From IMG/VR virus record IMGVR_UViG_3300022937_000141, positions 1 through 24,800 of that record: a stretch of 24,800 nt of DNA; one strand, written 5' to 3'. Numbering within the stretch: the first letter of the stretch is position 1; each line of letters opens with the position of its first letter. A program made the position numbers and the translations under genes. Positions 971-24,800 of this stretch are shown in pieces. The notes under the pieces were generated by a model. It saw nothing but the letters and a program-made list of their open reading frames with translations. It was not told where the DNA came from and searched no databases. Source of the DNA: a virus.

Positions 971-971
971 C

Positions 972-1696: not shown

Positions 1697-1716
1697 AATT
1701 CCCCCCAGAAAAAATT

Positions 1717-1929: not shown

Positions 1930-1933
1930 CAAT

Positions 1934-6845: not shown

Positions 6846-8882
6846 ATGCTGCCAACCAATCTAACAGCAATAACCTTTGATGAGATTAAAGCATCCATCA
6901 AATCATACATGCGGACTCGTCCTGAGTTCACAGATTATGATTTTGAAGGTAGTACATTGTCGTACTTGGTTGATGTACTAGCATATAATACTTACTATAA
7001 CTCGTTCAACGCTAATATGGCATTGAACGAGATTTTCATTAACAGCGCATCGTCAAGAGACAACGTTGTTAATATTGCAAAGCTTCTAAACTACGTTCCT
7101 CGGTCATTTAGAGCAGCTCAAGCGTGTGTTGACATCGCAGTGAGCGTAAATATTGAAAATGGTGTATATCCAGAGACAGTGACCCTTAAAAAGGGCATTG
7201 TAGCAGCAGGTGGCAAATATTCGTTTGTACGTCAATCTGACAGAACCGCCACGGTTGATACGAGTGGTAAGGCACATTTCCATGATTGCCTTTTGTATGA
7301 GGGTTCGATTATTACGTACAAATACACGGTTAATAATTATCAGAAGCAGAGATATATCATTCCTGCCGACCAAATTGACACTACAACTCTTGTAGTCAAG
7401 ATTAGACCCAATGCACAGTCCCAACAGGTTGATGCTTACAATCTTGTAGAGAACATTGTTGACCTCAACTCAGAATCTAGAGTCTATTTCTTGAATGAAG
7501 TTGAAGATTCGAGATATGAACTAAAATTTGGCGATGGTACTATTGGTAGAGCACTTGTAGACGGTGAAGTAATTGAAATTGAATATATTCGCTGTAATGG
7601 AACCGATGCGAACGATATTAACAATCTAACTTTCTCTGGTGAGATTGTTACTAGCGGAAATCGGAATATCGGTGCTGCCGATATTGATTTGACCCTCAAA
7701 GAAAGAACTCGCTACGGCGATGGCGCAGAATCTCTGGCAAGTATTAAGTACAATGCCCCGAGATATTATTCCACTCAGTATAGAGCAGTTACTGCCGAGG
7801 ATTATTCGACAATCACCAAACAAATCTACACCAATGCTGATAGTGTAATTGCTTTTGGTGGAGAAGAGATGAATCCGCCCGTTTATGGCAAGGTTTACAT
7901 TGCGATTAAGACAAAGAACAATACTACCCTCAATAATACAACTAAAAAGTCCATCCAGAACAACTTGAAAAAGTATGCGATGGCATCTATCGAACCTGTA
8001 ATCATTGACCCAGATTACATGTATCTGATTACCGATATTTTCGTTCTATACGATAAAAACTCGACAAGTCTGTCTGAATCGGAACTCCAGTCTCTGATTA
8101 GTCAGGGAATTGCTCAATATGCGGGGCAGGAGAATATTAACAACTTTGGTGGTTCTTTCTCCCTGTCAAAACTACAAAAAGCGATTGAACTTGCAGATAA
8201 CTCGATTGACACTTCTTCTGTACAGGCAACATTGCTGAAGTACATCTATCCTTTACAAGGTCAGACCAACACCTACTGTATTGACTTTGGTACAAGTCTT
8301 TATGACTCAAATCCAAGCAATGATGGTTCTGGAAATTGTGTTAAAGAACCCATTCTCCTTTCTGGTTCCTTTAGAACCATTGATAGACCTGATGTTGACC
8401 AATATTTTGAAGATGATGGTTTTGGCAATCTGATGACCTTCTATAACTCTGGTACTAGCAAAGTCTATACAAATAGAACCGCAGGTACAGTAGATTATTC
8501 CACAGGTAGAGTTTGTTTCGGTCCAGTGAATGTTATTACCACAGGAAACCTTAATGCAACTATTAATATTTTTGGTGACCAGACACAGGTTGTGGTTGGT
8601 GATACAACCGTTGTAGTCGGTTCTGGGCAAGGTGGTATTGACCTTCAAATTCCTGTACAAGTTATTCCTGATAACTTTACTACAGTTTATCCTTCTGACA
8701 CTGGAACAATCCTGTCTCTGCCTATTCCCGAGATTACAGTTGCCCCGATTGGCACAACACCTCCTGCGGTTATTCCGATAAATAATTTGACGCCAGAAGT
8801 CTTCTTAAGCATCCCTGAAACAGTGACCCCAATCATTCCTGATACCACAGGCGGATTGTTCGACTTGGCTTCTTGTTTCTGA
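6846..8882 (+). CDS. 6: Baseplate wedge subunit gp6 (baseplate J-like)
   Basis: The 678-residue protein is close in length to T4 gp6 (660) and directly follows gene 25. Family marks include an N-terminal helical region with YLVDVLAYNTYYNSFNAN and AKLLNYVPRSFRAAQA (about residues 38-95), the beta-rich GDGTIGRALVDGEVIEIEY block with RCNGTDAN (about 228-258), and the J-like core with YNAPRYYSTQYRAVTAEDY near residue 300. gp6 dimers build the inner ring of the baseplate and hold gp7, gp25 and gp53. The last ~90 residues are Pro/Ile/Thr-rich and repetitive (IPEITVAPIGTTPP), probably a flexible extension. No Shine-Dalgarno is evident; translation is probably coupled to gene 25. Confidence 0.9.
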   Translation: MLPTNLTAITFDEIKASIKSYMRTRPEFTDYDFEGSTLSYLVDVLAYNTYYNSFNANMALNEIFINSASSRDNVVNIAKLLNYVPRSFRAAQACVDIAVSVNIENGVYPETVTLKKGIVAAGGKYSFVRQSDRTATVDTSGKAHFHDCLLYEGSIITYKYTVNNYQKQRYIIPADQIDTTTLVVKIRPNAQSQQVDAYNLVENIVDLNSESRVYFLNEVEDSRYELKFGDGTIGRALVDGEVIEIEYIRCNGTDANDINNLTFSGEIVTSGNRNIGAADIDLTLKERTRYGDGAESLASIKYNAPRYYSTQYRAVTAEDYSTITKQIYTNADSVIAFGGEEMNPPVYGKVYIAIKTKNNTTLNNTTKKSIQNNLKKYAMASIEPVIIDPDYMYLITDIFVLYDKNSTSLSESELQSLISQGIAQYAGQENINNFGGSFSLSKLQKAIELADNSIDTSSVQATLLKYIYPLQGQTNTYCIDFGTSLYDSNPSNDGSGNCVKEPILLSGSFRTIDRPDVDQYFEDDGFGNLMTFYNSGTSKVYTNRTAGTVDYSTGRVCFGPVNVITTGNLNATINIFGDQTQVVVGDTTVVVGSGQGGIDLQIPVQVIPDNFTTVYPSDTGTILSLPIPEITVAPIGTTPPAVIPINNLTPEVFLSIPETVTPIIPDTTGGLFDLASCF

Positions 8883-8908: not shown

Positions 8909-11900
8909 ATGAATACTACGGTTTCCCAGCTTGTTGCGGGGCAAATGCCCCAGTACATCAGAGACGAAAACCCTCATTTCGTCAAGTTTCTTGAGTACTA
9001 CTACAAGTCTCAAGAAAAGACTGGTTTGTCCCAGGACATCCTGTCAAATCTGCTTGACTATGCAAATATCGACAGGTACGATATCAACCTGATTCAGGGA
9101 AGAACGCAACTCCTGAATAGCATCTCTGCTACGGATTCGACAATCATCGTTGAGTCTGTTGAAAACTTCCTGGAACAGAATGGCAGTTTTCTTCTGGAAG
9201 ACGAAATCGTTTATTATGAAAAGGCAACGAGTTCGCCTCAAGTATCTCTGACCCCTGGTATTTCATACGCTGAGTTTAACAATAAACTCCAAATTCTGGT
9301 AAACCCTTATAATTCTTTCGACGGTATTACATCTACTTTCTCTGTAACCACAGAGAGCAATCTGGTTGTCCCCCCTAGTGCTAATCACCTCCTGGTTCGC
9401 GTTTATGGCGAGTATCTGGTGCCTGGTGTTGATTATGTACTGAATACCTCTACAATCACCCTTACAACGCCTCCTAGGTCTCCTCAGCTCAATGATTCGT
9501 CTGAACAGACTAGCATTGTATATCTCAAAGGTTTCTTCCAAGATAACATTCAGGTAATTGACAATCTTGATAGTCAATTTGATGGAACTACGAAAACCTT
9601 CAATATCACTGTAAACGACTTCTCGTACAGTCCTATTTTGACTGAGTATACGATGGTCGTTCTGAATAATGAACTTTTGGAACCCAAGGTTGATTACAAT
9701 ATCAACGGTGACACCATCATCTTTACGAATCCCCCTTCTTTGGGTTCTAGAGCAAACGTTCGTTCTATTGAAGCACCTATCCTTTCCTATGGTAGTGGTG
9801 CATCTGGAGTTGCTCAGATTTCTGATACTGGTGAAATTACAGGCATTAAAGTTACTAATGGTGGTTCTAACTACAAACTTGAGTATCCTCCTCAGGTAAC
9901 TATTGTTTCTGACAATGGAAGCGGTGCTGTTGCATCTGCTCTTGTCAATGGACTACAAAGCATTTCCCTTCTAAGTGGAGGTAAAGGTTTTAGTAACCTT
10001 AATCCTCCTATTGTAAATATTGAACCACCTACAGACGCTGCTGGAGAAGCTGCAACGGCAACGGCAACTGTAAGTGAGGATGGTCAGGTAATTAGTCTGG
10101 AACTCCAGAACTCTGGTTCTAGATATACATTTACTCCTAGAATTACATTTGAAGTTCCTGGTGGTGGCACATTAACCCAACCTAATGTTGATGGTAATGG
10201 CGCAATTATTGCAAGCACCATCAATATCGATAATCCTGGCAAAGGATACTCTGTAGCACCGACTATCTACATTGATGAACCTACTGGTGAAAACCCAATT
10301 AATGCAAATATCACTTGCACCATTAACAGCAAGGGTGAAATTGATAGTGTAACTGTAAATAATGCTGGTAGGGGATATAGTCAGGCAAATCCCCCTAGAG
10401 TTCGTGTAGTTGAGCACAATCAGGCCCAGGTACTTGACGTTACCGTTGATGCTGCAGGTCGTGTTATTGATGTTGAGATGCTGAACGGTGGCATCGGTTT
10501 TGATGACGTTCCTTCGATTTATATTATTGATGACCGTACTGACCCTGTAACTGGTACTCCTATTGGTGGTACTGGTGCTAAGGCAACAGCAACCATTTTT
10601 AATGGTTCTATCACTGATATTAATATTACTGAGTTTGGTACTGGGTATTCTACTGCCAACCCTCCCAAAATCATTATCCAAAGACCTCCCTCAGCAAAAG
10701 CATCTGCTGAAGTTGGTTTTGCTGCAGTTACAGGTTTCAAAGTACTTGAGCAAGGTCAAGAATACACTCAAGCAAAGTTTGAGGGTTGTGTTAGAGGTGT
10801 AAGTGGACTTGTAGAATATGATTCTACTGGTAATGCTATCTTTGAAAATAGCACTACTGCAAAAGCACACACACTCACAGCAACATTCTCCCCTAGAGTT
10901 AGTTCTCTGGACGGTCTCTTCGTTCAGAAAATGATTTCTAAGTTTGCTGAACAGTATCTTCCCAATGTTCCTTACTTTGATTATGAGAAGATTGATGTTA
11001 TTAACATCATCAAGAATATTAGAAAGTTTTATGCATCTAAGGGTACTCAAGATTCGGTTGCATTCCTATTCAAACTGATTTACGGTGAGGATATTGAAAT
11101 TACCTACCCTAAGGAGCAGATTGTTAAACCTTCTGCTGCGACTTGGACTATTGATACAGTTCTTCGTTGTATTCTGATTTCTGGTGACCCAAGAAATATC
11201 ACTGATGGTCTTCTGACCCAAGATGCAGATGCTGTTGACACTAACGTCAAAGCAGCAAGTGCTCTGATTGAAAACTATTTGACTATTCGTACTTCAGATT
11301 ATGAAATCTTTGAACTGATTCTGTCCGAGGAAACAATCGAAGGTTCTTTTGCAATTCCTTACAAGACACGCCTTTGCGAAGGTATTACTGATAAGGATGA
11401 GATTATTATTGTTGACTCTACTGTTGGTTGGCCTGAGAGAAACGGTGTATTTGTAATCAATGGTGAGGAAAAGGTTCGTTATAAGGAAAAGTCCCTAAAC
11501 CAGTTCATTGAGTGTACTCGTGGCATCAACGGAACAACTTCTAGGAAGTGGGATGCTGCAACAGAGGTGCAATCTGACACATATGCATACATCAATAAAG
11601 GAACCGCTCAGGAAGTTGTTGTTCAGATTGTTGGTATCGTTGAAGCAGAACAAACAGTACTGACCGATGATGGTTCTTACTATCTGTCTGGTGATAAACT
11701 GACCGTTTCTAAACTTGGTTCTACTGAAGACATTCCTCAACTGAAATCTTGGATTTACAACGTCAAAAAACTTGTTCAGGTTGAGAGCGTTGAATTTGGT
11801 GGTGTTGGAGACAGAATTGCTACCGTAACATGCACTAACCCCCATGGTCTTCTGGTTGGAGACCAAGTTACGGTTTATGGTGCAAACCCTAACCTGTACA

Positions 11901-14900
11901 ACGGTACATTCCTGGTTCAATCTAGAGAAGATGCTTATATCTTCAAGTATCAACTTCCCCAACCAGCATCTACCACTCCTCAAGGTAATATTTTGATTTC
12001 GGTTGACCTTAACCGTGGTAAATCTGACACTGAGTCCATTCAAAAAATTATTGGTAACTATACCACAAACATCCAAAATACGTTCTTCAATACTGACTAC
12101 GTTTACATCGCAGCATCTGGTATTCCCAACTATAAAGTTGGTCCGTTCAATGAAACTGCTCTGATTCCTGGAAACCAGAGAAAACTGTATAGACTTCCCA
12201 GAAACCCAGAAACAATTTCTACAAAAGACAACATTACTCCTGGTCCTCTCGGTACTTGGGCAAATGGTGTGTCTATTTGGTCATACAAGTCTGAACTGAC
12301 CAAAATCTATGGTTCTCTGACATCTGTTAATATTACTGATGCTGGTGAAGGTTATGATGCATCTTCTCCGCCAGTTCTTAGCATCAGCGGTGGTGGTGGT
12401 ACTGGTGCAGAAGGATATGTCATCGTTAATGGTTCTGTAACCGAAATTGAGGTACTGAACGGTGGTTCTGGATATACATCTTCACCTCTTGTTTCTATCG
12501 TTGGAGGCGGAGGCGAAGGAGCATCTGCAACTGCTATTGTAACTAAAGGTGTTGTTTCTAGAATTCTACTGAACTCTGGTGGCACAGGTTTTACCTCTAG
12601 ACCCGATATTACGATTGTTGGTGGTGGCGGTTCTGGTGCTACAGGTAGAGCACAAGTTCGTGGACCTATTAAGGAGATTGTTGTTAGTGATGGTGGTGTT
12701 TCTTACACCAGCAAACCAAATATCACTCTAAGCTCTGGTACTGGTGCTGCTGCACAAGCAATCGTTAATAATGGTCGTATTATCTCCATTGCTATTGTTG
12801 CTGCAGGTAATGGATACACCACTCCTCCTGAAGTTGCTATTTACGGCGAAGGTTTCGGTGCTGTTGCTCGTGCTGTTATCGATACCGATGGCGAGAATGC
12901 TGGTCGTGTTACTGGCATTGAAATCCTTAACAAAGGTATTGGATACGAATCTGGCACCACAATTGTTACTCTGACATCCGTTGGTAGTGGCGCTGAGTTC
13001 GATTCCCAAGTATTTGAGTGGACTTATAACCTCCAAGCAAACAGTGACTTTGACGAAGCATATGGTGCTGTTTTTGAAGGATATAACACCCAGTATGGTG
13101 GTGAGTATGCTCACATTGCTAACCCTCAGCGTCTGAGATACGTTCTGGGTGACAATATGATTCTTGACTCTAACGGATTGATTAGAGAGCAAGAGGTTGG
13201 TCTTCAGCACTCCCCAATTATTGGTTGGGCATTTGATGGTAACCCTATTTACGGTCCTTATGGTTATGATGACCCAACCGACCAGTCTTCTGCAATCAGG
13301 AGAATGTCATCGTCTTATGCATTAAAAACAAACCTAATTTATCATCCAGATACAAATCCCACCCCTGCTCGTATTGATGGTCCTTCTTTGACCGAGTATG
13401 TACAAGGTTCTTTTGTTGAAGATTATCAGTACAACTTTGGTTCTGGTGACCTTGACCAGTACAACGGTCGTTTTGCTAAGACTCCTGATTTCCCAACAGG
13501 CAGATATTGCTATTTCGTTACCATTGATGCTTCTGAAGCAGGCAATCCAGTCTTCCCCTATGTTCTTGGTCCCTCTTGGAACTCTGTTGTTGATAAGTGG
13601 AACCTCCAGCAGACTGCGGTACAGCAAAATATCCCTGGTGGTGTTGTTAGATTCCGTGACCCTTATGAGAATGTTGATATTGACGTTGAAAGAACTCCTA
13701 ACGCTGAAACTGACACAATCACCTTTGAAGATGGTGACTTTATTCAGTTAGAACCCGAAGACGAGAACAGAGACTCTATTATTGATACCACTGAGGCAGC
13801 TGCGGTCAATCAACTTGAAGAAGAGGACCGTCTTGAGGTATTTGATTACTTCCCGACTGTCAAATTTGATTCTAGAGTCGATATTGAAGTAGAAACGACT
13901 ACTAAGTTTGAAGACGCTAAGGTTGACGGTTTTATTATTGAAAACCCTGGTCAATCCTATCAGGTAAATGACGTACTGGTCTTTGATGATACCGATACTG
14001 ATGGATATGGAATTTCTGCGAGAGTTTCTGAAATTAAGGGTAAGACGATTGATTCTTACACCTTTGAAATGATTAATGACGTTCCTTATGGCGTTATTAC
14101 TTGTGCAGACCCTCATGACCTGAAGATTGCTGACATCATCAATGTTCAATATACACCAATTCAGGCAAATACCAATAAAGAATTTAAGGTATCTGTTGTT
14201 AAGGGTATTGAAGAACTGAATGTTACTCAAGTTGGTACTGGTTATACCTCAGAAGTACCTATCACTGTTGAAATTGATGGCGTTGGACAAGACGCAGTTA
14301 TTGAACCCAAACTAGACACTGCAACTGGTAACGTTGTTGGATTTAATATTATCAATTCTGGTAATGGATTCACAACTGACCCCAGAATCCTGGTATCTCA
14401 CCCCCAAATCTTTAAGAAGGCAGACTACTTCCTCAACACAATCAATGGTACTGGTGAGGAGACCGTTATTCATAATGTCACCACAACTTCTAACAAAGAT
14501 ACCTATGTTGTAGGTAAGACTCAGGATGCTGTTGGTAACTTCTACGGTTTTGTTGCTAAGTACAACTCTACTGGTATCAAAGTTTGGGAAAAGTCGCTCC
14601 GTTCTAACTCTCCCAATATTACTGGAGATTCTTATTGTGAATTGACGGAAATTTATGTCGATGAAGATGACGCTAACACCGTTATCGTCGCAGGACATAC
14701 AAAACCCAGTGGAATCAACCCCGCACATAATCCAGACATCATCGTTGCTAAGTATAACCAAAATAACACTGGTCTTCTTGCAACTCTCGACTGGCAGCGT
14801 GAGTATGCTGGTATTTCTGGTATTTCTCGTGGTGATTACATCACGTCTTTGACAAAACTGACAACAGACCGTTATATCCTTGGTGGATATACAGATACTA

Positions 14901-17900
14901 ACACCAGTTCTGCATATGATGCTTTTATCATCGTTCTTAATGAACTGGGTAACTTTGTTGCTAAGAGAAAATTCACTTCTCTGACTCGTTCTGAGAAACT
15001 GCTTGATATCGTAGTACACCACGAAACTACTGGTCAGGACATCGATAGAATTTACTATTTGATGGAAACTGCCCCTAACTCGACCAGCGATGACAAATCA
15101 TTGGTTATTGGTAAGTGTCAACTGACTCAGTTTGGTATTGTAAGTAACACCCTGCAGCAAGTTTCTAATGCTGGGTTTGCACTTGATAATGCACACATGG
15201 TCATTGACGAATTTAATGAACTGTGGATTAGTGCTGAACTTGTTAATAAGACTAATCTTGAGCGTAAGAATTTCTGGGTAGGTAAGTACAGTCTTGGAGT
15301 TGCTCCTATCTGGAGCTACATCTATGATTGTGGTAATGTCAATATTGACAGCATTAAGATGGTTTCGGGTAATGTTGACCTCTTTAACCACCTTAACGTT
15401 GGTCTTGAAGTTGTTCGAGCAAGTGATAAGAAGGTAATTAACCACTTCCTCAAGATTTCTTATAATGGTAGCGTTCAAACCAATTATAAGGTTGACTATG
15501 AGCGTGGTACTGAGGGTGGTTCCTGGTATGCATCTCACTCTGATGTTTCTGGAGACCATGTTCTTGTTGGTCAGCAGAAGCACAATAGAACTGTTGCACT
15601 ATTTGATTTTGAACTTGATGGTTCTTCCCCAGGGTTTGGAGACACAACTGAAAAGACTACTAACGTAACTTGGACTGGTGATAGTGCAGGTTCTATCGGT
15701 AGAGGTTCTAATACTGCATTGGATGTACAAGGTTATGACATCAATGCTGCAACATATTCCGCAGCATACTTGAATGTACAAAGTGGAGACACCGCAACTC
15801 TGTATGGTCTTGGTGACATGACCAGCAAAGACTTCACGGTCTCTGGTTTCTTCAATGCAAGTTCTCAGTATGTAACTGCTGGTTATACTGGAGCAAATCC
15901 TGCCCTGTTTACATTTGGTGACTGGACTGGACCTGGCATCAGTGTTGTTTGGGATAGAACTGGTTCTTCTGGCAATACTAATGCAATTCTGTTGTATGCT
16001 AATGCTACAGCACTTTATGGTAGCTCTCCGATTGTTTCACCCGCTGGTGTAATTTCGACTGATACTTGGCACTTTGTTTCGCTGACTAAGAGTGGTAATA
16101 CATACACTCTTGCTGTTGATGGTACTATTGCTTGCCAAGCAACTGCTCCTTCTATTAATCTGAATAATAACTTCTTCGTTGCTAACGCTCCTGGATTCAC
16201 CAATACTGCTGGTGCCTATGATGCATCGACTCAGTTCTCTGGTTATATTGATGGTGTTAAGATTAGTGATAGAGTTCTGTCTCAAACTGCACCTTCTGTT
16301 ACTGCAGAATACACTGCGTATTATGGTCGTACCGATTACATTCATACAGATGCAATTCTGCACAAGTTAGATAAGGTAACTGCAAACGAAAGAACTGGTA
16401 GATTCTCTACAACCAATAATGGCATTGTATTTAATAAAACTGATGATACTACAATCACTAGAGGTGCTTCGGTAACAAATAACATTGTTGGTTATGACCT
16501 AGCATCAGAAGGTTATCAGGTTCTTGACTATAATGACGTAGCATCGCTTCTTACTCAGGATATCATGACGGTAAGTCAGATTACTGATGTTTGGGCGACT
16601 AGAACTGCTACAATTCCTGCTCCTGGTTCTAAGAAGGTTCGGGTAACTCCTAAGGCATATGGTAAGTTCTTTATTGCACAATCGACCACAACCAAGGTCA
16701 ACAACGTACAAAGATTGACTACAAATGCTTTCCCTGTGAACTTCACTAAGGGTGCAACACTTCAGGTCTGGAATGCTGGCACTATTGCAGCACAAGCAAA
16801 GATTATTGACGTTGATACAACTGCACATCCGAATACAATTGACATTGCTGATATTGTTGGTGAGTGGGATACTTATATCGATTCTGGAGAACTGAAAACT
16901 AATGTCAATGATATTAACGAAATTAAAGGATATGTCTTTGCTGAAGTAATTAACACTACTCCTGGCGTCTTTGATTTCAACCTTGCACAAGAAGACTTCA
17001 CTCTGATTGACCCATCTGCAACAAATAATCTTGATGAGTTTGCAAGATTCAAACCCCATAGTGACCCAGATTACAGCGTAAGAATCGATGATATCAGTGG
17101 CTCCTCTGAGTTTGTTGTTGGTTCTGTTGTCAGTTTGACCTCTGACCAACTTTCTTTCAACTCCGAATATAGCACTCTGACTATTAGTGGTTTGACTGGT
17201 GTCACCAAAATTACTTTGGTGACTAATCTGACCAAAATTGTTAAGTATAGTGCAATTAATAACACAGATATTGCATATGTAACAACCGCAACTGCACATT
17301 ACCTCAAACCCAATGAAATCATTCACATTACTGGTAACAGTGGTGATGGTACTGCTAATGACTATGACGGTTCATTCTTCGTTAAGGAAGTCTTCACCAG
17401 CAGAGAATTTACATACTCTCTGAGAGGAGTTCCTACAGATAACCCCGCCGAAGCAAATGGTGGTGCAAATAATGTAGTGGTTTCTGCTAAGACACCTGTT
17501 CTTCCGATGTTCTACGGTCACCAGTACGTCTTTGACGTATCTGACCCGTCGATGGTTGGTTATTATCTAACATTCTCTAAAGATAATCTCTATAAACTGG
17601 AATACTCTTTCAATGCTATTGAGCGTTCTGGTACTCCTGGCGTTGTTACTGGTGGTGTCAAACCTTACGTTTCTCTTGCAGTTAACGAAGAAGTTACCAA
17701 TATTTCGTACTACTTCGACCCCTCTAGAACAACTTCCGAACCTCCGATGTCCAACACGGCATATCTGGACGTTCAGAATTCTCCTTATCTGGGAAGATTC
17801 CGTATTGAACAACTTGCTGGTGCAACAATTACCAGCGGTGCAACAATTATGAAGTTCCCCCTAAACATTGAACCTGAAGGTCCTGCTGATAGGGAAACTT

Positions 17901-20900
17901 CTTCCTACTCTACAGAAGCAGAATCTGCAGTTGGTCCTATCGCAAATATCAGAATTGTTAATGGTGGTGGTTTCTATAAGAAACTTCCTGTTGTAGATAG
18001 CATCGTTTCTTCTCGTAAAATTGAAAGAGTTCAAATCACAGACCCTGGTACTGAATATGCTGTAGGCGTTTACTATAATGTCCCCATCCAAGGTGATGGT
18101 GAGGGCGGATTTATCCAAATCACTGTTGAAGATGGTCTTGATGAAGAAGGGCAACTTATTCCTGGTCAAATCAGTCAGGTTGTTGTTACCTCTCCTGGTA
18201 AGAATTACACTACGGCATTTATCGATGTTGAGGCAATTTCTGGCATTCTTGGACCCAGCCTTGCTGGTTCTGGTGCCGAATTGACTGTTGTTATTCCCCC
18301 TGCTGGTAGTGGTGCCTCGGTATTTGTTAAGGGTACTAAGGTTGGTAAGATTAAGAAACTTAAGAATAACAACTTCGGTTTCGACTATCCTCAAGATTAC
18401 ACTCTGCGTCCAGAGATTTCGTTCCCTGTTAACCTGCAACTTATTAACACATCTGTTCTGTCTAGCATTAAGGTCACTGACCCTGGTTCTGGTTACTCTC
18501 AGGCACCTACCGTCATTATCGAAGGTGGTGGTGGAGAAGGTGCAACAGCAGTTGCAAACATCAAGAATGGTCGTATTGAAAGTATTGAAGTTAAGGACCC
18601 TGGTGCAGGTTACTCTTCTGAACCCACAATCTCACTTAACTCGGCATTCTCTTATGTCATTAACCTTGACTTGAATCTCTTCCAGTTCTCTTTCCCACAT
18701 GGTATTCCCAATGGTGCTGAAGTAAAACTGACTGTTGAAGATAATGGCGATGGCGACCCCGCATACGGCATCACCGCATTCGGTCCTTTGGTTCCTGGTC
18801 AAACGTACTATGCAATTACAGGTATTGCAAATGGTCTTGAAGGTGACCAAATGCGTCTTGCACTGACTCCTGACAACGCTGCTATTGGCGACTTCCTTTC
18901 CTTCGTTAACGCTGGTGTTGGAAGACAGATTGTTCTGACCGAATCTTTCGGTGGTGCTGCTCAGGCAATCGTTGCAACTGGTCAGTTCCTCTCTGGTGAA
19001 AGAATTTATCAGGGTGAGAGCCTCGACCAAGCAACTGCCTTTGGTTATATTTCGGAGAATGAAGGTTGGCAGTCTGGACCTAAGATTCTTAAAGTCACTG
19101 GTTACACAGGTACTTTTGAGAAGGGTCAGAAGATTACTGGTACTATTTCCAAGTCTTCTGGTACGATTGATAACCTGAACATGGCAAGAGGTGTTCTTAA
19201 TATCTCCTCTATCACCAAGACTCCTGGTAAATTTACCGATGACGTTGGTAAACCTTCCGAAATTATTCAGAAGATTCAAGACTCCTACTACTATCAGGAC
19301 TTCTCTTATAGTGTTAAGTCTTCCGTATCTATTGATAAGTGGCGTGATATTGTCACTAAGAACGCACACCCAGGTGGATTTAAGATTTTTGGTGAACTTG
19401 GTCTTGCTGAAACTGCAACAATTGAGAACAAAGAGATTGATTTTGAACTTGTTAAGTCGGTAAACCTTGCAGATTCTGCAGTTGTACCAAACATTCAAAA
19501 CTTTACTCTGGTTGAACCGATTTACACCGACTTCAATAATACTGAGGTTCTGTTCCGTCAAAAGAGATTGACCTCTTCGGAGCAAATTCTTACCTCTGTT
19601 GTACAGCGGCTTGATGATATTTCTAACCTGTTTGACGGTGTTAGATTCTCGTTCCCGCTTACAGTTGAGCAAAATCAAGTTGTCTCGACCACAAATCAGT
19701 TGATGGTCGTAATGAATGGTGTTATCCAGACTCCTGGTACTGCATATGAAGTTCAGGGTGACCAGCTTGTATTTGCGGAACCACCCCAACCCCCTGCTAG
19801 CGTCAAGTATGTTGACTTGGGTCTGTCGTTCAAGGAAACCTATCGTCTTTCCCTGAGCACGGTTCTCGGTACTTATCCTCCTGTTGGTTATCAGGTAAGA
19901 GGTGTTCTAACTAACAATACTGCTCTTGTTGTACGTAGTGCCACCAATGAAATAGATATCATCTATCCTGACCAGCAAGAAGGCACTCCTATCAACCCGA
20001 ACATTATGTTCCGTGTTGGTGTTGTTAATACTCTTGGTCCACCGATTACGGCAGGTAATGGTTATACCGATAGTTTTAATGTCCCAACCACAGGTGGTTC
20101 TGGTACAGGTCTCACTGTTGATACCAATACTAATGCTAGTGGTCAGGTTACTTCTATTGTCCTGAATACGGGTGGTAGAGATTATCAGGTTGGTGATATT
20201 ATCACAGTTCTTGCTGGTGACCAGACATGTACGTTTGAAATCCTTGTAATTCAGGGTGAAGAAATTCGCTCTAGTGCTGTTGGTTTCAGTGCATTCGTTG
20301 ATAGTCAAACTCTTCTAGAGAACAATAATCTGTTTGAGTATAAAGAAAATATTACTGACTTCCAAGGTGATATTGCGTCCGTTGAGGCAATTAACCTCGA
20401 CGATAGCACTTCTTCGCCTATTGCAACTTTGAATCTCTCGATTAGTGCTTCTGCAACGTTCATGTACATTGAAACCGAAGATGCTGAAGGAAATGCTCTT
20501 TGGGAAGTTAATAAGCAGTATCAACTAGATTCTGAAATCTTCACTGTACAAGCAATCGATACCGTTAATGACAGGTTGACAATTCTTCGCGGTGAACTGG
20601 GAACGGCTGCAGTATCTCACCAGAATGGTTCTAATGTCTATTCTACGGATATCATTAAGACTAACAATATTCTGGTCAGTAAGACAACTGGTACATATCA
20701 GTCTACTCCTGGTCTCTTTGACATCAACACTGACGAATACATTATCTCGGCTCGTTCTGGAATTGTTGCCCAGGTTGTAAGTTCTGCCCCATACAGAGAC
20801 CCTGTTACTCAGACTGTTGTTCCTCAGGTCAATATTTCTGATGGTTCTAGTTTCTTTGGTCTTCTGTTCAACAGACTGGTTTCTGCAGAAAATCCGAATA

Positions 20901-23900
20901 CTATTCTGGATGATATATCACAATCTCAGATTCAAGTTGTCGATGTTGCAGATAATGAGACTGCGATTAATGATAAGTTCCCTGGCAACGAAGTTGTACG
21001 AAACACTTATCTGACGTACAATCCAGCCAACGTCAATGGGACAGGGTTTACTATTGGTGAAACCCTCAGAAACTACAAGATTCTGTTTGGTGGACAAAGT
21101 GGAAACTTCATCACAGATGAGGAAGTACGGGTTAACAAACTTTCCTTCTTCGATTCTGAAGGTGACCTTGTTACCGCAGGTCAGACTATCTATGCAGAAA
21201 ATGCAACTGCAGAAGTCATTGGTACAAACTATGGTAGAAAGTGGTTCTATCTCGGTAAGCAAGCAAGAGGTGCAGACTACCTACATTCATTTAGTTTCAC
21301 TGGTGATGCCAAGATTTCTGACGTTCAGTCTAAGTTTGGTGGCACCTCACTGTACTTAGATGGTACTGGAGACTACGTTGATGTAGCAACTCATACTGAA
21401 TTTGGTTTTGGTACTGGTGATTGGACGATTGAAGGATGGATTCGTCCTGGTTCTATTGCTGCTGGTTCTAAACTCATCTTTGATATGCGTTCTGCATCTT
21501 CCGATAGAGCAGCAACTCTGACACTGAATGGCGACATTCTTACCTATATCGCTGGTAACAGTGGTATTACAATTACTGGTACAACCAACATTAGCACTAA
21601 CAATTGGTATCATGTTGCAGTTTGCCGCTCTAATAACTCCATCAGAATGTTCCTGAATGGTGTTCAAGAAGGTCCTACACAGTCTGACCCCTCTGATTAT
21701 GGTTCTACAAGACCAATTAGAATTGGTGCAGACTATACAAACGCAAACCTCTTTATTGGTTATATTGATGAGGTCCGTGTTTCTACTAATGCACGTTATG
21801 ATGTAGATTTCACTCCTCGTGCGGGTATCTTCCAAGGTGATACAAACACTGTTCTGCTGACTCACTTTGATGGTGAGAACAATGATACTGACACCACTGA
21901 TTGGTCTGGTGTACCTACTTATGCTTATGGCAATGAGTATGTAAACACCACCATTCCTTTCCGTTACTACGATGCATGTGACCAGATTGATGCTAATGCT
22001 AGCATCATTGCTGATGAGGCAGTTGAATTCTTTAAGAACACTGGTGCTGGTCACCCCAACAACTTCACATTCCCGAATGATGATGGTGGAGCACGTTGTA
22101 AGCAAGACCTCGTTCTTGCTCTCGATGCTCTGACCAAATCTATTAGAAGTGGTGGCAACTCCTATGTTTGGGATGCTGCGGCATACTATCGTGTTGAGGA
22201 CGAGAACAATCCTGCTCTGGCAACTCTAAGTCATGTTGACGGTGAAGTTCCTGAGACCATCTATGTCATGAGAATCGCGGAAGACATCGCGATTGCAACC
22301 ATGAGAAACCAGTTTGGTATTGACAATATTGAGAATAACATTGGTTCTCAGACCTATAATGCATGGAATGCTGTAGATGACATTTACATCGATGCTGCAA
22401 ATGAGATTGAAGCTAATATCAACTACATCGCTGCTGAAGCACTTGATAGAGGTATTGCTCAATTCCCGAGTTCTACTGCAACTCTGACTACAGAGTGCTC
22501 CGACGATATTAAGGATGTACTTCGCTCCGTCGTAACTAACCTGAAGCATGGTGGTAACAACCATGTTTGGGACTCGGCATGGTGGTTCTTGAATGGTGGT
22601 TCTTTCAACCATATCACCACTAACCTGACAGAGACTGTTTGGATTATCAACTCTGCTCGTGACCTGGCAACAGAAATCATGCAGGGTCAACCTTCCACAA
22701 CTGTTGGTTCCCATGGTCTAACACCCACAATCGATTCTACAATTACAATTGACCCAGCATCTCCTCGTTGTGCTGCTGTTGAGTCTGCAATCGATACCTT
22801 GATGCAGATTATTACCGATACTCTGCAAGACCCCAGTGGTTCTGATGCTGTTACATATCCTCTGTCTATCACCACAACTGGTGAAATCAACGGTAGAGTT
22901 CGTCCCTCTAAGTGGCCTGTTGTTTACAGCACCCTGTATACCAATACTGATGTTTCTCGTGATACTACCATCACGATTGACCCGCTGGCCGCTTCTAACA
23001 ACCAACTCTTCTGTGCAAACGTCGAAACTGCAATTGAAGACCACTTCAATATTATTACCCAGACAATCGAACAGGCAAATACTGGTACTAACTACCTGAA
23101 CGGTATTACCAGAGTTCTTCCTGATTACATTTACTCTGGTGGTTCTTTCTCTGGTTACGTTTCGGTTCCCTTTATTGCTGGTACTGTCGATAACGTTAAT
23201 GATTATATTGTTACCTATCAGATTGATGGTGACGACCGTCACAGATTCAAAGATGCTGCAAATCTGATTAGAGATAACATCAATGTTATCGTTGATGAGG
23301 CAATCGGTCGGATGCTTAATGAGTATCCTACACTGACTCAGTTGATGCCAAGAAATAATGGTGGTCTTTCTGATGCAGGTACAACTAGATGCCGTACTGA
23401 CCTCGTTCAGATTGCTAACGCAGTTGCTGATGACCTTGAGGTTGGTGGTAATGAGAAGACTCTGCAAGCAGTTAGGTTCTATCTGGATTCTAATGGTGGT
23501 ATCCTTCACGTAAGACTTCAACTTCTACAGTCACTATTTGCCCATGAGCAAATTAAGGACCTGTGTAAGGATGCTATCGATGGAACCCTTCAAACGGTTT
23601 ACAGCAACAGCATTGTCGTACCTCCGATTGGTATTACGACTGATACTGCTGCAGGTGGACAGGCATCTTACACCCCAACAACAGCAACTTATGATGCTGC
23701 AACTGGTGATTCTGTAATCACTATCGGTGCTCACTCTCTGCCTGTTGGAAGTTCGATTTACCTCGTTCCCAACTCCATGACATTTACATGTGCTATGGAC
23801 GGTGGTAACGCACTGCACACATATCCTCGTACCACTGACCCGAACTACCAGAAGTACTTTACTATTACTGGTGCTACAGCAACTACGATTACGGTTAATG

Positions 23901-24800
23901 CAGGTGCTTCACCTATCGTTAGTTACGACGTAAGCAATGCTTATTACAATGCTGCAACTGGTAACCTGCAACTGACTATCGGTACACATTCGCTGCCTGT
24001 TGGTACAAGCATCAAACTTGCTGCTAACTCTCTGACATTCACATGCTCTTCTGACAACTACGCTAGCACCCACACTTACCCCCGTGCTTCCGACCCTGCA
24101 TATGACACTGCTCTGAAGATTAATAGCGTAGGACCTACCACGATTAACATTAACGTTGGTATTGCAGCATCGTCTTCTCAGTACGAACATAGGTTCGTCT
24201 CTGCTACAGCTGGCGCAGTTGTCTCTGGCGGTAATTATGCACACACATTCTCCAGCGCCCTTCCTAACTCGGTTGTTGCTGTTGGTAAGTGTGCTGATGT
24301 CAAGGCGGCAGTTGATACGATGCTCGACCAAATGAATGCAATTCTTGCTCCTACTGGAGACAGATTTGTCGATGCTGGTAATGCACTTTGGAAGAATCAA
24401 GATTATATCGCTGAAGAAACAGCAGGTGCTCTTGACGCATATTTCACTTACGAAATTAACCAAGTCTCTTACAAGACATTTGAATATCCTGGTGGTAGCA
24501 TTGATGGACGTAATAAGTGCATCAGAGACGTTAAGGAGATGATTAAGGCACTTATCACCGACCTCCTGACTGGTGGTAACTCCAATACTGTAATTGCTCT
24601 GGAGACTTACATTGATGCGAATAAGCAAGTACTTCACGTTGAAGACCAACTTCCCGCTACTCTGTATGCTCTAAACTATGCCAAGATGCTCGCGCACAAG
24701 GCAATCAACCAGTTGCTGCAAACTCAAGGTTCGGTTCAAACTTCTCCCGACCACTATGTTGCGCTGTACACCACTGAAGATGCTTATATTGACACTACGG
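8909..24800 (+). CDS. Giant virion structural protein, baseplate-anchored, multi-domain (partial, at least 5297 aa)
   Basis: One frame stays open from the ATG at 8909 to the window end, 26 bases after gp6. Residues 1-75 (MPQYIRDENPHFVKFLEYYY) and 671-745 (RKFYASKGTQDSVAFLFK, then YGEDIEITYPKEQI) are of a type I recall from large baseplate proteins next to gp6 in T4-like marine phages, the position of T4 gp7. Beyond them lie G-x-G-Y repeats (~308-630, 1137-1367, 3012-3248), a YHYH domain (~1430-1595), a probable beta-propeller (~1845-2230), LamG-like domains (~2233-2470, 4127-4328) and alternating helical and beta modules (from ~4353). Three 'FDG' beta modules (about residues 135, 220 and 3575) resemble tail-fibre elements. 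T4 gp7 has 1032 residues, so this is at least five times larger. The likely job is a wedge anchor plus a long host-contact appendage. The 3' end is missing. No Shine-Dalgarno is obvious. Confidence 0.85.
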   Translation, partial: MNTTVSQLVAGQMPQYIRDENPHFVKFLEYYYKSQEKTGLSQDILSNLLDYANIDRYDINLIQGRTQLLNSISATDSTIIVESVENFLEQNGSFLLEDEIVYYEKATSSPQVSLTPGISYAEFNNKLQILVNPYNSFDGITSTFSVTTESNLVVPPSANHLLVRVYGEYLVPGVDYVLNTSTITLTTPPRSPQLNDSSEQTSIVYLKGFFQDNIQVIDNLDSQFDGTTKTFNITVNDFSYSPILTEYTMVVLNNELLEPKVDYNINGDTIIFTNPPSLGSRANVRSIEAPILSYGSGASGVAQISDTGEITGIKVTNGGSNYKLEYPPQVTIVSDNGSGAVASALVNGLQSISLLSGGKGFSNLNPPIVNIEPPTDAAGEAATATATVSEDGQVISLELQNSGSRYTFTPRITFEVPGGGTLTQPNVDGNGAIIASTINIDNPGKGYSVAPTIYIDEPTGENPINANITCTINSKGEIDSVTVNNAGRGYSQANPPRVRVVEHNQAQVLDVTVDAAGRVIDVEMLNGGIGFDDVPSIYIIDDRTDPVTGTPIGGTGAKATATIFNGSITDINITEFGTGYSTANPPKIIIQRPPSAKASAEVGFAAVTGFKVLEQGQEYTQAKFEGCVRGVSGLVEYDSTGNAIFENSTTAKAHTLTATFSPRVSSLDGLFVQKMISKFAEQYLPNVPYFDYEKIDVINIIKNIRKFYASKGTQDSVAFLFKLIYGEDIEITYPKEQIVKPSAATWTIDTVLRCILISGDPRNITDGLLTQDADAVDTNVKAASALIENYLTIRTSDYEIFELILSEETIEGSFAIPYKTRLCEGITDKDEIIIVDSTVGWPERNGVFVINGEEKVRYKEKSLNQFIECTRGINGTTSRKWDAATEVQSDTYAYINKGTAQEVVVQIVGIVEAEQTVLTDDGSYYLSGDKLTVSKLGSTEDIPQLKSWIYNVKKLVQVESVEFGGVGDRIATVTCTNPHGLLVGDQVTVYGANPNLYNGTFLVQSREDAYIFKYQLPQPASTTPQGNILISVDLNRGKSDTESIQKIIGNYTTNIQNTFFNTDYVYIAASGIPNYKVGPFNETALIPGNQRKLYRLPRNPETISTKDNITPGPLGTWANGVSIWSYKSELTKIYGSLTSVNITDAGEGYDASSPPVLSISGGGGTGAEGYVIVNGSVTEIEVLNGGSGYTSSPLVSIVGGGGEGASATAIVTKGVVSRILLNSGGTGFTSRPDITIVGGGGSGATGRAQVRGPIKEIVVSDGGVSYTSKPNITLSSGTGAAAQAIVNNGRIISIAIVAAGNGYTTPPEVAIYGEGFGAVARAVIDTDGENAGRVTGIEILNKGIGYESGTTIVTLTSVGSGAEFDSQVFEWTYNLQANSDFDEAYGAVFEGYNTQYGGEYAHIANPQRLRYVLGDNMILDSNGLIREQEVGLQHSPIIGWAFDGNPIYGPYGYDDPTDQSSAIRRMSSSYALKTNLIYHPDTNPTPARIDGPSLTEYVQGSFVEDYQYNFGSGDLDQYNGRFAKTPDFPTGRYCYFVTIDASEAGNPVFPYVLGPSWNSVVDKWNLQQTAVQQNIPGGVVRFRDPYENVDIDVERTPNAETDTITFEDGDFIQLEPEDENRDSIIDTTEAAAVNQLEEEDRLEVFDYFPTVKFDSRVDIEVETTTKFEDAKVDGFIIENPGQSYQVNDVLVFDDTDTDGYGISARVSEIKGKTIDSYTFEMINDVPYGVITCADPHDLKIADIINVQYTPIQANTNKEFKVSVVKGIEELNVTQVGTGYTSEVPITVEIDGVGQDAVIEPKLDTATGNVVGFNIINSGNGFTTDPRILVSHPQIFKKADYFLNTINGTGEETVIHNVTTTSNKDTYVVGKTQDAVGNFYGFVAKYNSTGIKVWEKSLRSNSPNITGDSYCELTEIYVDEDDANTVIVAGHTKPSGINPAHNPDIIVAKYNQNNTGLLATLDWQREYAGISGISRGDYITSLTKLTTDRYILGGYTDTNTSSAYDAFIIVLNELGNFVAKRKFTSLTRSEKLLDIVVHHETTGQDIDRIYYLMETAPNSTSDDKSLVIGKCQLTQFGIVSNTLQQVSNAGFALDNAHMVIDEFNELWISAELVNKTNLERKNFWVGKYSLGVAPIWSYIYDCGNVNIDSIKMVSGNVDLFNHLNVGLEVVRASDKKVINHFLKISYNGSVQTNYKVDYERGTEGGSWYASHSDVSGDHVLVGQQKHNRTVALFDFELDGSSPGFGDTTEKTTNVTWTGDSAGSIGRGSNTALDVQGYDINAATYSAAYLNVQSGDTATLYGLGDMTSKDFTVSGFFNASSQYVTAGYTGANPALFTFGDWTGPGISVVWDRTGSSGNTNAILLYANATALYGSSPIVSPAGVISTDTWHFVSLTKSGNTYTLAVDGTIACQATAPSINLNNNFFVANAPGFTNTAGAYDASTQFSGYIDGVKISDRVLSQTAPSVTAEYTAYYGRTDYIHTDAILHKLDKVTANERTGRFSTTNNGIVFNKTDDTTITRGASVTNNIVGYDLASEGYQVLDYNDVASLLTQDIMTVSQITDVWATRTATIPAPGSKKVRVTPKAYGKFFIAQSTTTKVNNVQRLTTNAFPVNFTKGATLQVWNAGTIAAQAKIIDVDTTAHPNTIDIADIVGEWDTYIDSGELKTNVNDINEIKGYVFAEVINTTPGVFDFNLAQEDFTLIDPSATNNLDEFARFKPHSDPDYSVRIDDISGSSEFVVGSVVSLTSDQLSFNSEYSTLTISGLTGVTKITLVTNLTKIVKYSAINNTDIAYVTTATAHYLKPNEIIHITGNSGDGTANDYDGSFFVKEVFTSREFTYSLRGVPTDNPAEANGGANNVVVSAKTPVLPMFYGHQYVFDVSDPSMVGYYLTFSKDNLYKLEYSFNAIERSGTPGVVTGGVKPYVSLAVNEEVTNISYYFDPSRTTSEPPMSNTAYLDVQNSPYLGRFRIEQLAGATITSGATIMKFPLNIEPEGPADRETSSYSTEAESAVGPIANIRIVNGGGFYKKLPVVDSIVSSRKIERVQITDPGTEYAVGVYYNVPIQGDGEGGFIQITVEDGLDEEGQLIPGQISQVVVTSPGKNYTTAFIDVEAISGILGPSLAGSGAELTVVIPPAGSGASVFVKGTKVGKIKKLKNNNFGFDYPQDYTLRPEISFPVNLQLINTSVLSSIKVTDPGSGYSQAPTVIIEGGGGEGATAVANIKNGRIESIEVKDPGAGYSSEPTISLNSAFSYVINLDLNLFQFSFPHGIPNGAEVKLTVEDNGDGDPAYGITAFGPLVPGQTYYAITGIANGLEGDQMRLALTPDNAAIGDFLSFVNAGVGRQIVLTESFGGAAQAIVATGQFLSGERIYQGESLDQATAFGYISENEGWQSGPKILKVTGYTGTFEKGQKITGTISKSSGTIDNLNMARGVLNISSITKTPGKFTDDVGKPSEIIQKIQDSYYYQDFSYSVKSSVSIDKWRDIVTKNAHPGGFKIFGELGLAETATIENKEIDFELVKSVNLADSAVVPNIQNFTLVEPIYTDFNNTEVLFRQKRLTSSEQILTSVVQRLDDISNLFDGVRFSFPLTVEQNQVVSTTNQLMVVMNGVIQTPGTAYEVQGDQLVFAEPPQPPASVKYVDLGLSFKETYRLSLSTVLGTYPPVGYQVRGVLTNNTALVVRSATNEIDIIYPDQQEGTPINPNIMFRVGVVNTLGPPITAGNGYTDSFNVPTTGGSGTGLTVDTNTNASGQVTSIVLNTGGRDYQVGDIITVLAGDQTCTFEILVIQGEEIRSSAVGFSAFVDSQTLLENNNLFEYKENITDFQGDIASVEAINLDDSTSSPIATLNLSISASATFMYIETEDAEGNALWEVNKQYQLDSEIFTVQAIDTVNDRLTILRGELGTAAVSHQNGSNVYSTDIIKTNNILVSKTTGTYQSTPGLFDINTDEYIISARSGIVAQVVSSAPYRDPVTQTVVPQVNISDGSSFFGLLFNRLVSAENPNTILDDISQSQIQVVDVADNETAINDKFPGNEVVRNTYLTYNPANVNGTGFTIGETLRNYKILFGGQSGNFITDEEVRVNKLSFFDSEGDLVTAGQTIYAENATAEVIGTNYGRKWFYLGKQARGADYLHSFSFTGDAKISDVQSKFGGTSLYLDGTGDYVDVATHTEFGFGTGDWTIEGWIRPGSIAAGSKLIFDMRSASSDRAATLTLNGDILTYIAGNSGITITGTTNISTNNWYHVAVCRSNNSIRMFLNGVQEGPTQSDPSDYGSTRPIRIGADYTNANLFIGYIDEVRVSTNARYDVDFTPRAGIFQGDTNTVLLTHFDGENNDTDTTDWSGVPTYAYGNEYVNTTIPFRYYDACDQIDANASIIADEAVEFFKNTGAGHPNNFTFPNDDGGARCKQDLVLALDALTKSIRSGGNSYVWDAAAYYRVEDENNPALATLSHVDGEVPETIYVMRIAEDIAIATMRNQFGIDNIENNIGSQTYNAWNAVDDIYIDAANEIEANINYIAAEALDRGIAQFPSSTATLTTECSDDIKDVLRSVVTNLKHGGNNHVWDSAWWFLNGGSFNHITTNLTETVWIINSARDLATEIMQGQPSTTVGSHGLTPTIDSTITIDPASPRCAAVESAIDTLMQIITDTLQDPSGSDAVTYPLSITTTGEINGRVRPSKWPVVYSTLYTNTDVSRDTTITIDPLAASNNQLFCANVETAIEDHFNIITQTIEQANTGTNYLNGITRVLPDYIYSGGSFSGYVSVPFIAGTVDNVNDYIVTYQIDGDDRHRFKDAANLIRDNINVIVDEAIGRMLNEYPTLTQLMPRNNGGLSDAGTTRCRTDLVQIANAVADDLEVGGNEKTLQAVRFYLDSNGGILHVRLQLLQSLFAHEQIKDLCKDAIDGTLQTVYSNSIVVPPIGITTDTAAGGQASYTPTTATYDAATGDSVITIGAHSLPVGSSIYLVPNSMTFTCAMDGGNALHTYPRTTDPNYQKYFTITGATATTITVNAGASPIVSYDVSNAYYNAATGNLQLTIGTHSLPVGTSIKLAANSLTFTCSSDNYASTHTYPRASDPAYDTALKINSVGPTTININVGIAASSSQYEHRFVSATAGAVVSGGNYAHTFSSALPNSVVAVGKCADVKAAVDTMLDQMNAILAPTGDRFVDAGNALWKNQDYIAEETAGALDAYFTYEINQVSYKTFEYPGGSIDGRNKCIRDVKEMIKALITDLLTGGNSNTVIALETYIDANKQVLHVEDQLPATLYALNYAKMLAHKAINQLLQTQGSVQTSPDHYVALYTTEDAYIDTT
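9830..10800 (+). repeat. G-x-G-Y beta-repeat array 1 in the giant gene
   Basis: About eight ~35-45-residue units follow the pattern 'I-x-x-I-x-V-x-x-x-G-x-G-Y/F-x-x-x-P-x-V-x-I', for example GEITGIKVTNGGSNYKLE, SINSKGEID-type spacers, VTVNNAGRGYSQANPPR and INITEFGTGYSTANPPK. Conservation is at the protein level rather than as exact DNA copies, implying old duplications. The array sits between the N-terminal anchor and the YASKGT core. Confidence 0.75.
10919..11140 (+). other. Conserved core segment of the giant protein (gp7-position motif)
   Basis: Residues 671-745 contain FVQKMISKFAEQYLPNVPYF, IKNIRKFYASKGTQDSVAFL and IYGEDIEITYPKEQIVKP. I recall this 'F-Y-x-x-K-G-T-x-x-S-x-x-F-L-F' helix pair from large baseplate-linked proteins of marine T4-like phages. 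It probably marks the part embedded in the wedge; this is family recall, not a search result. Confidence 0.5.
12317..13000 (+). repeat. G-x-G-Y beta-repeat array 2 in the giant gene
   Basis: Six well-kept units, including LTSVNITDAGEGYDASSPP, VTEIEVLNGGSGYTSSP, ISIAIVAAGNGYTTPP and VTGIEILNKGIGYESG. Most end in a 'GGGG-x-GA' turn, giving a period of about 38 residues. This is the most regular of the three arrays and directly precedes the YHYH domain. Confidence 0.8.
13190..13700 (+). other. YHYH-type domain within the giant protein
   Basis: LQHSPIIGWAFDGNPIYGPY (from residue 1432) is the signature of the YHYH domain, followed by a DLDQYNGRF segment, TGRYCYFVTID and FPYVLGP. The domain is found in secreted bacterial proteins and in large marine phage structural proteins; its ligand is not established. 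It is intact, with no stop or shift. Confidence 0.8.
14440..15600 (+). other. Probable beta-propeller (SBBP-like) region within the giant protein
   Basis: Repeated blades read like beta-propeller repeats: TYVVGKTQDAVGNFYGFVAK with KVWEKSL, TVIVAGHT with PDIIVAKYN and DWQREYAG, and RYILGGYTDTN with AFIIVLNELGNFVAK. Later blades are less clear. The spacing (about 50-60 residues) and the 'G-x-T...D-x-F-I-x-K-x-x-x-x-G' order fit SBBP-type repeats. It may bind surface glycans or proteins. Confidence 0.55.
15605..16320 (+). other. First LamG/concanavalin-like domain of the giant protein
   Basis: Residues ~2233-2470 show the jelly-roll order: DFELDGSS, a KDFTVSGFFNA strand, ISVVWDRTG, then DTWHFVSLTKSGNTYTLAVD and FSGYIDGVKISDRVLS. 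The 'W-H-x-V...T-L-x-V-D-G' and 'G-x-I-D-x-V-x-I' marks are typical of LamG-like domains, which often bind sugars. Confidence 0.75.
17943..18650 (+). repeat. G-x-G-Y beta-repeat array 3 in the giant gene
   Basis: Five or so units, less regular than array 2: ANIRIVNGGGFYKKLP, IERVQITDPGTEYAVG, ISQVVVTSPGKNYTTAF, LSSIKVTDPGSGYSQAP and IESIEVKDPGAGYSSEP. A lone further copy (VTSIVLNTGGRDYQVGD) lies near 20143. The last two units again carry the GGGGEGA turn. Confidence 0.75.
21287..21890 (+). other. Second LamG-like domain of the giant protein
   Basis: Residues ~4127-4328 read SFSFTGDAKISD, KFGGTSLYLDGTGDYVDVA, FGTGDWTIEGWIRPG, NNWYHVAVCRSNNSIRMFLN and FIGYIDEVRVSTNARY. This is a textbook LamG_3-type pattern and better conserved than the first copy, so the two probably have different origins or ages. 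Confidence 0.85.
21963..24720 (+). repeat. C-terminal helical repeat array of the giant protein
   Basis: Four helical units recur: near 21963 (QIDANASIIADEAVEFFK), 22379 (AANEIEANINYIAAEALD), 23246 (AANLIRDNINVIVDEAIG) and 24350 (AGNALWKNQDYIAEETAG). Each is followed after 20-45 residues by a 'C-x-x-D-(I/L/V)...GGN' helix (for example CKQDLVLALDALTKSIRSGG). The bases just before the window end (YTTEDAYIDT) may open a fifth. Units are separated by the beta modules at 23684-24180 and by other linkers. Confidence 0.7.
23684..24180 (+). repeat. Tandem 'HSLPVG...TYPR' beta modules
   Basis: Two consecutive ~80-residue modules share YDAATGDSVITIGAHSLPVG / YYNAATGNLQLTIGTHSLPVG order, then 'S-(M/L)-T-F-T-C', 'H-T-Y-P-R-x-x-D-P' and a final 'T-T-I-x-(V/I)-N' strand. 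They differ at many positions, so they are not a recent copy. A shortened related piece (EHRFVSATAGAVV ... YAHTFSSA) follows before the fourth helical unit. Confidence 0.7.

Follow-up and report, generated by a model that had tools for sequence, protein, structure and literature searches.

Phycobiliprotein-like repeats in a giant, probably gp7-type, baseplate wedge protein of a marine T4-like cyanophage

The IMG/VR virus record IMGVR_UViG_3300022937_000141 (here the window, i.e. the whole 24,800-nucleotide stretch of DNA analysed) ends inside a single very long gene that opens at position 8909. The gene product is probably a giant gp7-type wedge protein of a marine T4-like cyanophage, combining a split gp7 core with displayed modules, among them five repeats that resemble phycobiliproteins. 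These repeats are the remarkable part of the protein; its size is unremarkable and its family is known. A sequence-only reading of the same DNA had described both size and domain set as extreme; the claim as to size is not upheld by comparison with relatives, and what is surprising in the domain set is the phycobiliprotein-like repeats, which that reading missed.

Phycobiliprotein-like repeats in the C-terminal third

Five helical repeats of 113-125 residues each are present in the C-terminal third of the protein, four of them inside the window (21962-24733) and one beyond its end, in a near-identical IMG/VR contig (L005) that continues the gene:

21962..22336, + strand: phycobiliprotein-like repeat 1 (Cys 4397), by repeat profiles; of all five it gives the poorest match to a phycobiliprotein profile
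22379..22717, + strand: phycobiliprotein-like repeat 2 (Cys 4530), by repeat profiles
23240..23608, + strand: phycobiliprotein-like repeat 3 (Cys 4828), by repeat profiles
24359..24733, + strand: phycobiliprotein-like repeat 4 (Cys 5204), by repeat profiles and predicted structure
L005:11438-11791, beyond the window end: phycobiliprotein-like repeat 5 (Cys 5439), by repeat profiles

The motif C-x-x-D has seven matches in the protein, five in the repeats and two, at 4961 and 5046, outside them. A second recurring Cys motif (approximately C-A-x-V) occurs between the C-x-x-D repeats, at residues 4621, 4702, 5128, 5312 and 5534, and may be part of the helix preceding a repeat.

Related units also occur in other cyanophages. 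An iterated profile search that excluded 11 loci duplicating the window or its near-identical contigs gave 49 repeat units in 10 open reading frames (ORFs), with the Cys kept in 38/41 and the Asp in 40/40. A tblastn search with one repeat (E ≤ 1e-5) retrieved 302 phage records, every one of which carries the name Synechococcus, Prochlorococcus or cyanophage. The repeat matches in other records are partly in other tail genes. The most matches of any record searched, 16, are those of S-RSM4 (L026/W14), where they are spread over three separate giant ORFs (4495, 3515 and 2924 aa); in the S-TIM4 giant (L003) one repeat is seemingly split by an insertion of ~410 residues (residues 4434-4850). No published mention of the repeats was found in the open-licence PMC literature, including the available portions of PMC10665884, PMC2984593, PMC10452541 and PMC2327270.

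Homology of the repeats to phycobiliproteins

Pfam gave a faint Phycobilisome match in the C-terminal third of the protein, and since no single stretch passed, such matches at first looked like noise; this prompted the construction of repeat profiles with controls. A piece of 700 residues that holds three repeats does pass the curated cut-off of PF00502 (23.5 versus 22.2 bits). When a profile of 36 repeats was searched against 177635 PDB sequences, 148 matches were obtained at E ≤ 10, the best 60 of the 148 all being phycobiliproteins (top 1.2e-6), with the repeat C-x-x-D aligned on the phycobiliprotein C-x-R-D. A profile of 57 units, taken from the giant gene (five) and other IMG/VR contigs (52), gave 102 PDB matches, of which the best 60 are again all phycobiliproteins (top E 4.8e-7).

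The relationship is specific in both directions. Against 1626 cyanobacterial ORFs (from 80 of 117 stretches, chosen by a phycocyanin motif), a repeat profile gave 170 matches at E ≤ 10, which comprise 169 of the 174 phycobiliproteins in the set and one other ORF at E 7.1; with a second repeat profile 166/170 matches were phycobiliproteins, the four others having E 2.6 to 8.6. Conversely, a phycobiliprotein profile searched against 751 phage ORFs gave 188 matches at E ≤ 10. Repeat-bearing ORFs account for 166 of these (out of 167 in the set; best E 1.2e-14), and the remaining 22 are other ORFs at E 0.29 to 10. Controls were made with 336 unique repeats, obtained from 693 matches by keeping the 531 that are near full-length and removing duplicates. 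At E ≤ 0.01, 123/336 real repeats match, as against 0/336 shuffled and 0/336 reversed; at E ≤ 1 the corresponding figures are 249, 1 and 5 of 336. Among cluster representatives 17/66 match at E ≤ 0.01, as do 0/15 of those without any Cys.

The structure predicted by AlphaFold2 for repeat 4 (using the 57 units; predicted local distance difference test (pLDDT) 83.6, predicted template modelling score (pTM) 0.68) points the same way. In a Foldseek search, 48 of the 50 matches listed have phycobiliprotein or phycobilisome titles, the other two being chains of 8u0f, an entry titled 'Bacterial fluorescent protein'; by VIA, 49 of the 50 matches listed have such titles and one is 8u0f, with Z up to 12.3 and with 7lj0_B superimposed at a root-mean-square deviation of 2.2 over 110 residues. 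By this predicted model the repeat has the globin-like fold of phycobiliproteins.

Some of the results weigh against homology. No Foldseek match of the repeat 4 model reaches E 0.001, the TM-scores by query length being 0.31-0.54, and a VIA Z of 12 is less than the level that the tool states to be safe for helical bundles. Single-sequence searches are poor: residues 901-4940, which contain repeats 1-3, retrieve no phycobiliprotein from the PDB at E ≤ 0.1 (one weak, unrelated match has E 0.068), 500 residues holding repeat 5 retrieve nothing from Pfam at E ≤ 0.01, and only 14/36 repeats taken singly reach PF00502 at E ≤ 1. The hhalign alignment of repeats with phycobiliproteins covers 63/112 columns at 13% identity. 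Nonetheless, the profiles in both directions, the controls and the predicted structure, taken together, are read here as reflecting homology to phycobiliproteins, not a chance likeness.

Phycobiliproteins pair as alpha and beta subunits, which form trimers and hexamers. The phage repeats share with them (phycocyanin, phycoerythrin and allophycocyanin; PF00502) an Asn, the Cys-84 type C-x-x-D and the predicted fold. By contrast, they are repeated inside a giant protein, the match is mostly to the central helices and the Arg of C-x-R-D is not conserved. The C-x-x-D motif aligns with the bilin-attachment site Cys-84 and is kept in 5/5 of the protein's own repeats. Among the 336 unique repeats, the first-helix Asn is present in 324/324, the Cys in 281/335 and the Asp three residues on in 299/321, with an Arg at +2 of the motif in 111/336; the cluster representatives have the Cys in 51/66 and the Asp in 56/66. 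To judge by these residues, the putative bilin site is largely, although not strictly, kept.

The giant gene and its family

The gene that carries the repeats is open at the window end:

8909..24800, + strand: giant gp7-type baseplate wedge/virion structural protein, by ORF scan and PHROG 701

An ORF scan confirmed that the frame runs free of stops from the ATG at 8909 to the window end (5297 codons), as had been reported; the chance of such a run in random codons is, by arithmetic, ~1e-110. The window is the whole 24800-base record, the end of which falls inside the gene. Three other IMG/VR contigs (L004, L005 and L006), which align without gaps to the final 11135 bases of the window at 99.88-99.93% identity, extend beyond it, and in 3/3 the frame closes at locus position 16195, a single stop equivalent to window position 29860. 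The extension past 24800 that the sequence-only reading had proposed as a check thus gives, via these near-identical contigs, a complete gene of 20952 bp encoding 6983 aa. An assembly artefact or join as the source of the frame was ruled out, because the three contigs agree in continuing it and L009, a further stretch of the contig that contains L005, reaches unbroken from the gene start to window position 21599.

The protein matches PHROG 701 over nearly its full length, the best stretches being columns 5-4907 of 6136 for the window and 5176-6131 for L005. In a protein search its first 1000 residues match 478 records, nearly all cyanophages, and in 290 of these the match covers 80% or more of the query. 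That large proteins occur at this site in marine T4-like phages, as the sequence-only reading stated, is borne out by 17 named cyanophages chosen for spread, whose same-place proteins have annotated lengths of 3515 aa (S-RSM4), 3884 (S-CAM9), 4225 (ACG-2014f), 4454 (P-HM2), 5195 (P-SSM2), 6064 (ACG-2014a), 6076 (Syn9), 6167 (S-CAM8), 6180 (S-SM1), 6198 (S-RIM14), 6378 (S-RIM2), 6384 (S-H25), 6395 (S-RIM8), 6603 (S-TIM4), 6817 (ACG-2014d), 7124 (P-SSM7) and 7351 (P-TIM40). P-HM1 was excluded, the coding sequence labelled gp7 there not being the matching frame (4448 residues). At 6983 aa the window protein ranks third of 18, and with two of these cyanophages having longer versions its size is ordinary, not extreme. 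The same-place genes of other phages encode 523 aa (pf16) and 1006 aa (phiN3), and T4 gp7 has 1032 aa.

The giants of cyanomyoviruses assigned to PHROG 701, including S-SM1 SSM1_102, Syn9 gene product 101 and S-TIM4 ORF_101, have the same position after gp6 and share with the window protein its length class, near-full column coverage and repeats in the C-terminal third. They differ in repeat number, the window protein having five and other repeat-bearing records from 3 to 16 profile matches. The family is already known as that of a virion protein, because the S-SM1 orthologue, SSM1_102, is labelled T4-GC 969, and T4-GC969 is among the 41 proteins that, according to the available text of PMC3037559, were detected in purified virions of S-SM1 from multiple peptides.

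A split gp7 core at the N terminus

The N-terminal region consists of two conserved segments separated by an insertion:

8909..9220, + strand: gp7 core, first half (residues 1-104), by alignment of 15 cyanophages and hhalign (E 2.3e-13)
9221..10768, + strand: insertion of ~515 residues with G-x-G-Y beta repeats, splitting the gp7 core, by the 15-member alignment
10781..11608, + strand: gp7 core, second half (residues 625-900), with FYxSKGT motif, by phmmer and profile (E 4.5e-4)

Residues 1-104 and those from ~625 onward are common to the 15-member alignment; the insertion is found in the window and 9/14 relatives, and is missing from 5/14. With residues 1-900 as query, phmmer gave gp7 (9f4a) as the sole PDB match up to E 1 (residues 705-735, E 0.0015), as did a profile built from the five relatives that lack the insertion (E 4.5e-4). 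Compared by hhalign with T4 gp7 and the post-gp6 genes of phiN3 and pf16, the same five relatives gave E 2.3e-13 and a probability of 98%. The sequence relation to gp7 spans ~190 residues. The likeness to T4 gp7 that had been drawn from gene position is thereby strengthened, the N terminus being related to gp7 by profile.

Structural comparison is less favourable. The AlphaFold2 model of residues 1-904 (pLDDT 85.5) has 0 Foldseek matches at E ≤ 0.001; second in rank, though weak, is 5iv5_BJ, a chain of the T4 baseplate (E 9.1e-3, prob 0.07). Thus membership of the gp7 family rests on sequence profiles, because the N-terminal model has no significant structural match.

The wedge core of the T4 baseplate has the composition (gp6)2-gp7. 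The window protein shares with T4 gp7 its gene position after gp6 and a profile-related core that has the FYxSKGT motif. By contrast, it is ~7 times longer, and its core is N-terminal and split by the insertion, whereas that of T4 gp7 is at approximately residues 643-831. Some database entries, including those of P-HM2 and S-RIM8, already name the gene gp7. According to the available text of PMC7029224, T4 gp7 is absent from, and substituted by VrlC in, both phage groups compared there, including cyanomyophages. The profile results argue against that absence; in cyanomyophages the gp7 core appears to be present, split and buried in the giant gene.

Lectin-like and YHYH domains

The region between the gp7 core and the repeats contains further domains detected by Pfam:

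13076..13531, + strand: YHYH domain 1 (residues 1390-1541), PF14240, E 2.1e-32
15788..16288, + strand: laminin-G/concanavalin-like lectin domain 1 (~residues 2294-2460), PF13385, E 2e-8
21359..21796, + strand: laminin-G/concanavalin-like lectin domain 2 (~residues 4151-4296), PF13385, E 4.6e-22

A second YHYH domain was found by Pfam near the C terminus of the giant protein. In the available text of PMC7824862 the YHYH domain is predicted to be a zinc-binding, tail-associated, metal-dependent hydrolase. The earlier suggestion of a role in host recognition is in keeping with the lectin-like and YHYH domains, which fit host contact. Residues ~1850-2230 of the window protein resemble, by eye, beta-propeller or delta-60 repeats, Pfam having no match there.

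The baseplate neighbourhood

Profiles uphold the gene order that had been used to place the protein in the gp7 position of a baseplate locus, i.e. PAAR, gp25, gp6 and the giant gene:

5445..6185, + strand: PAAR protein gene, phrog_281 (E 8.3e-26) and PF05488 (E 3.6e-7)
6425..6844, + strand: gp25 baseplate wedge gene, phrog_261 (E 3e-56) and PF04965 (E 8.6e-17)
6846..8882, + strand: gp6 baseplate wedge gene, phrog_219 (E 1.2e-218) and Pfam Gp6 domains

Directly before the giant gene, 14/15 relatives have a gene whose annotation is baseplate wedge protein, with the name gp6 if one is given; in P-SSM2 the annotation is only predicted protein. Two genes after the giant gene, L005:16218-17084 and L005:18790-21132, have YHYH domains, and the products of L005:17578-18774 and L005:18790-21132 have, by eye, cupredoxin-like C..H motifs. 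Neither tandem DNA repeats nor tRNAs were found in the window.

Discussion

In the arrangement that probably best accounts for these results, the gp7 core would anchor six copies of the protein in the baseplate, while the remainder of each chain, with its lectin-like, YHYH and phycobiliprotein-like modules, would be displayed at the baseplate rim, where it may meet the host surface. The repeats most likely represent a host-derived fold that has been reused as a repeated building and contact module.

It is also conceivable, though unlikely, that the repeats are chromophorylated at the Cys of C-x-x-D, giving the virion an array that absorbs or senses light and gates adsorption or tail firing. 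The motif is present in all five of the protein's own repeats and is largely kept in the unique repeats; however, the Cys is replaced in 16% of the latter and the Arg is present in only a third. The distribution of the repeats among phages bears on this reading, with 13 matches in S-PM2, six in P-HM2, six in P-HM1, and none in P-SSM2 or P-SSP7. Adsorption of S-PM2 is said to be light-dependent, and P-HM2 reportedly does not adsorb in the dark, as P-SSM2 and P-SSP7 reportedly do. The repeats agree with these reported traits in 4/4 phages, which is a lead only, with n = 4 and one podovirus among them. More generally, the available text of PMC2984593 describes light-dependent adsorption for several cyanomyoviruses, and that of PMC7238727 a class of cyanophages without adsorption in the dark, but a host-side cause of such light dependence is equally possible.

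Genes for bilin attachment and synthesis give a mixed picture. In a sample of 22 phage records, 17 with repeats and five repeat-free, matches to the CpeT lyase are present in 13/17 repeat-bearing and 0/5 repeat-free records. This split proves little, in that only 2/5 of the repeat-free records are cyanophages (S-CAM9 and P-SSM2), the matches are weak and fragmentary in 11/13 records (E 1e-11 to 8e-4) and relatedness is a confounding factor; the co-occurrence is suggestive at most. Moreover, T-type lyases such as CpeT are said in the available text of PMC10452541 to serve Cys-153, not Cys-84. A bilin reductase is found in 6/22 records, five with repeats and one, P-SSM2, with the reductase yet without repeats. 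In S-RIM44 a CpeT bilin-lyase gene (L115:1025-1564) lies ~700 bases upstream of a multi-repeat tail gene (L115:2270-14243); no relatives of its product were found in a search of a genome contig collection.

That the giant ORF encodes a polyprotein, cleaved into smaller virion proteins, is quite improbable: the mosaic of many domains and the presence of repeat-bearing regions in separate genes of other cyanophages would fit such processing, but a single reading frame is annotated in 17/17 of the named phages measured. It is very unlikely that the repeats mimic phycobilisome subunits, so as to bind or disturb, during infection, the antenna of the host or the antenna linkers. Homology to host antenna proteins and the fact that 302/302 of the records found with one repeat are cyanophages are consistent with mimicry; by contrast, the S-SM1 orthologue is a virion part, outside the cell at adsorption, and P-HM1 and P-HM2, which carry repeats, were isolated on Prochlorococcus MED4, Prochlorococcus being without phycobilisomes according to the available text of PMC2984593. 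Least probable of all is convergence, i.e. a helical unit sharing a few residues with phycobiliproteins by chance, since the low identity and the weakness of the protein's own repeats when searched singly are countered by a specificity that is near-perfect whichever profile is the query, the clean result of the controls with shuffled and reversed repeats, the Asn, Cys and Asp in register and structure match lists filled with phycobiliproteins.

As homologues of phycobiliproteins within virion proteins, the repeats would represent a new viral use of the fold on which cyanobacteria mainly rely for light harvesting. They might help to explain why some cyanophages attach only in the light, and they make two matters testable, i.e. 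this light-only adsorption and the role of bilin genes in Prochlorococcus phages, which is called unclear in the available text of PMC2984593. It is rather doubtful that cyanophage baseplates and tail fibres bear bilins, making the virion pigmented and light-sensing with adsorption gated accordingly; if true, however, a pigmented virion would make sense of why phages like S-PM2 and P-HM2 depend on light to adsorb, and would give a purpose to phage bilin synthesis and lyase genes in hosts without phycobilisomes.

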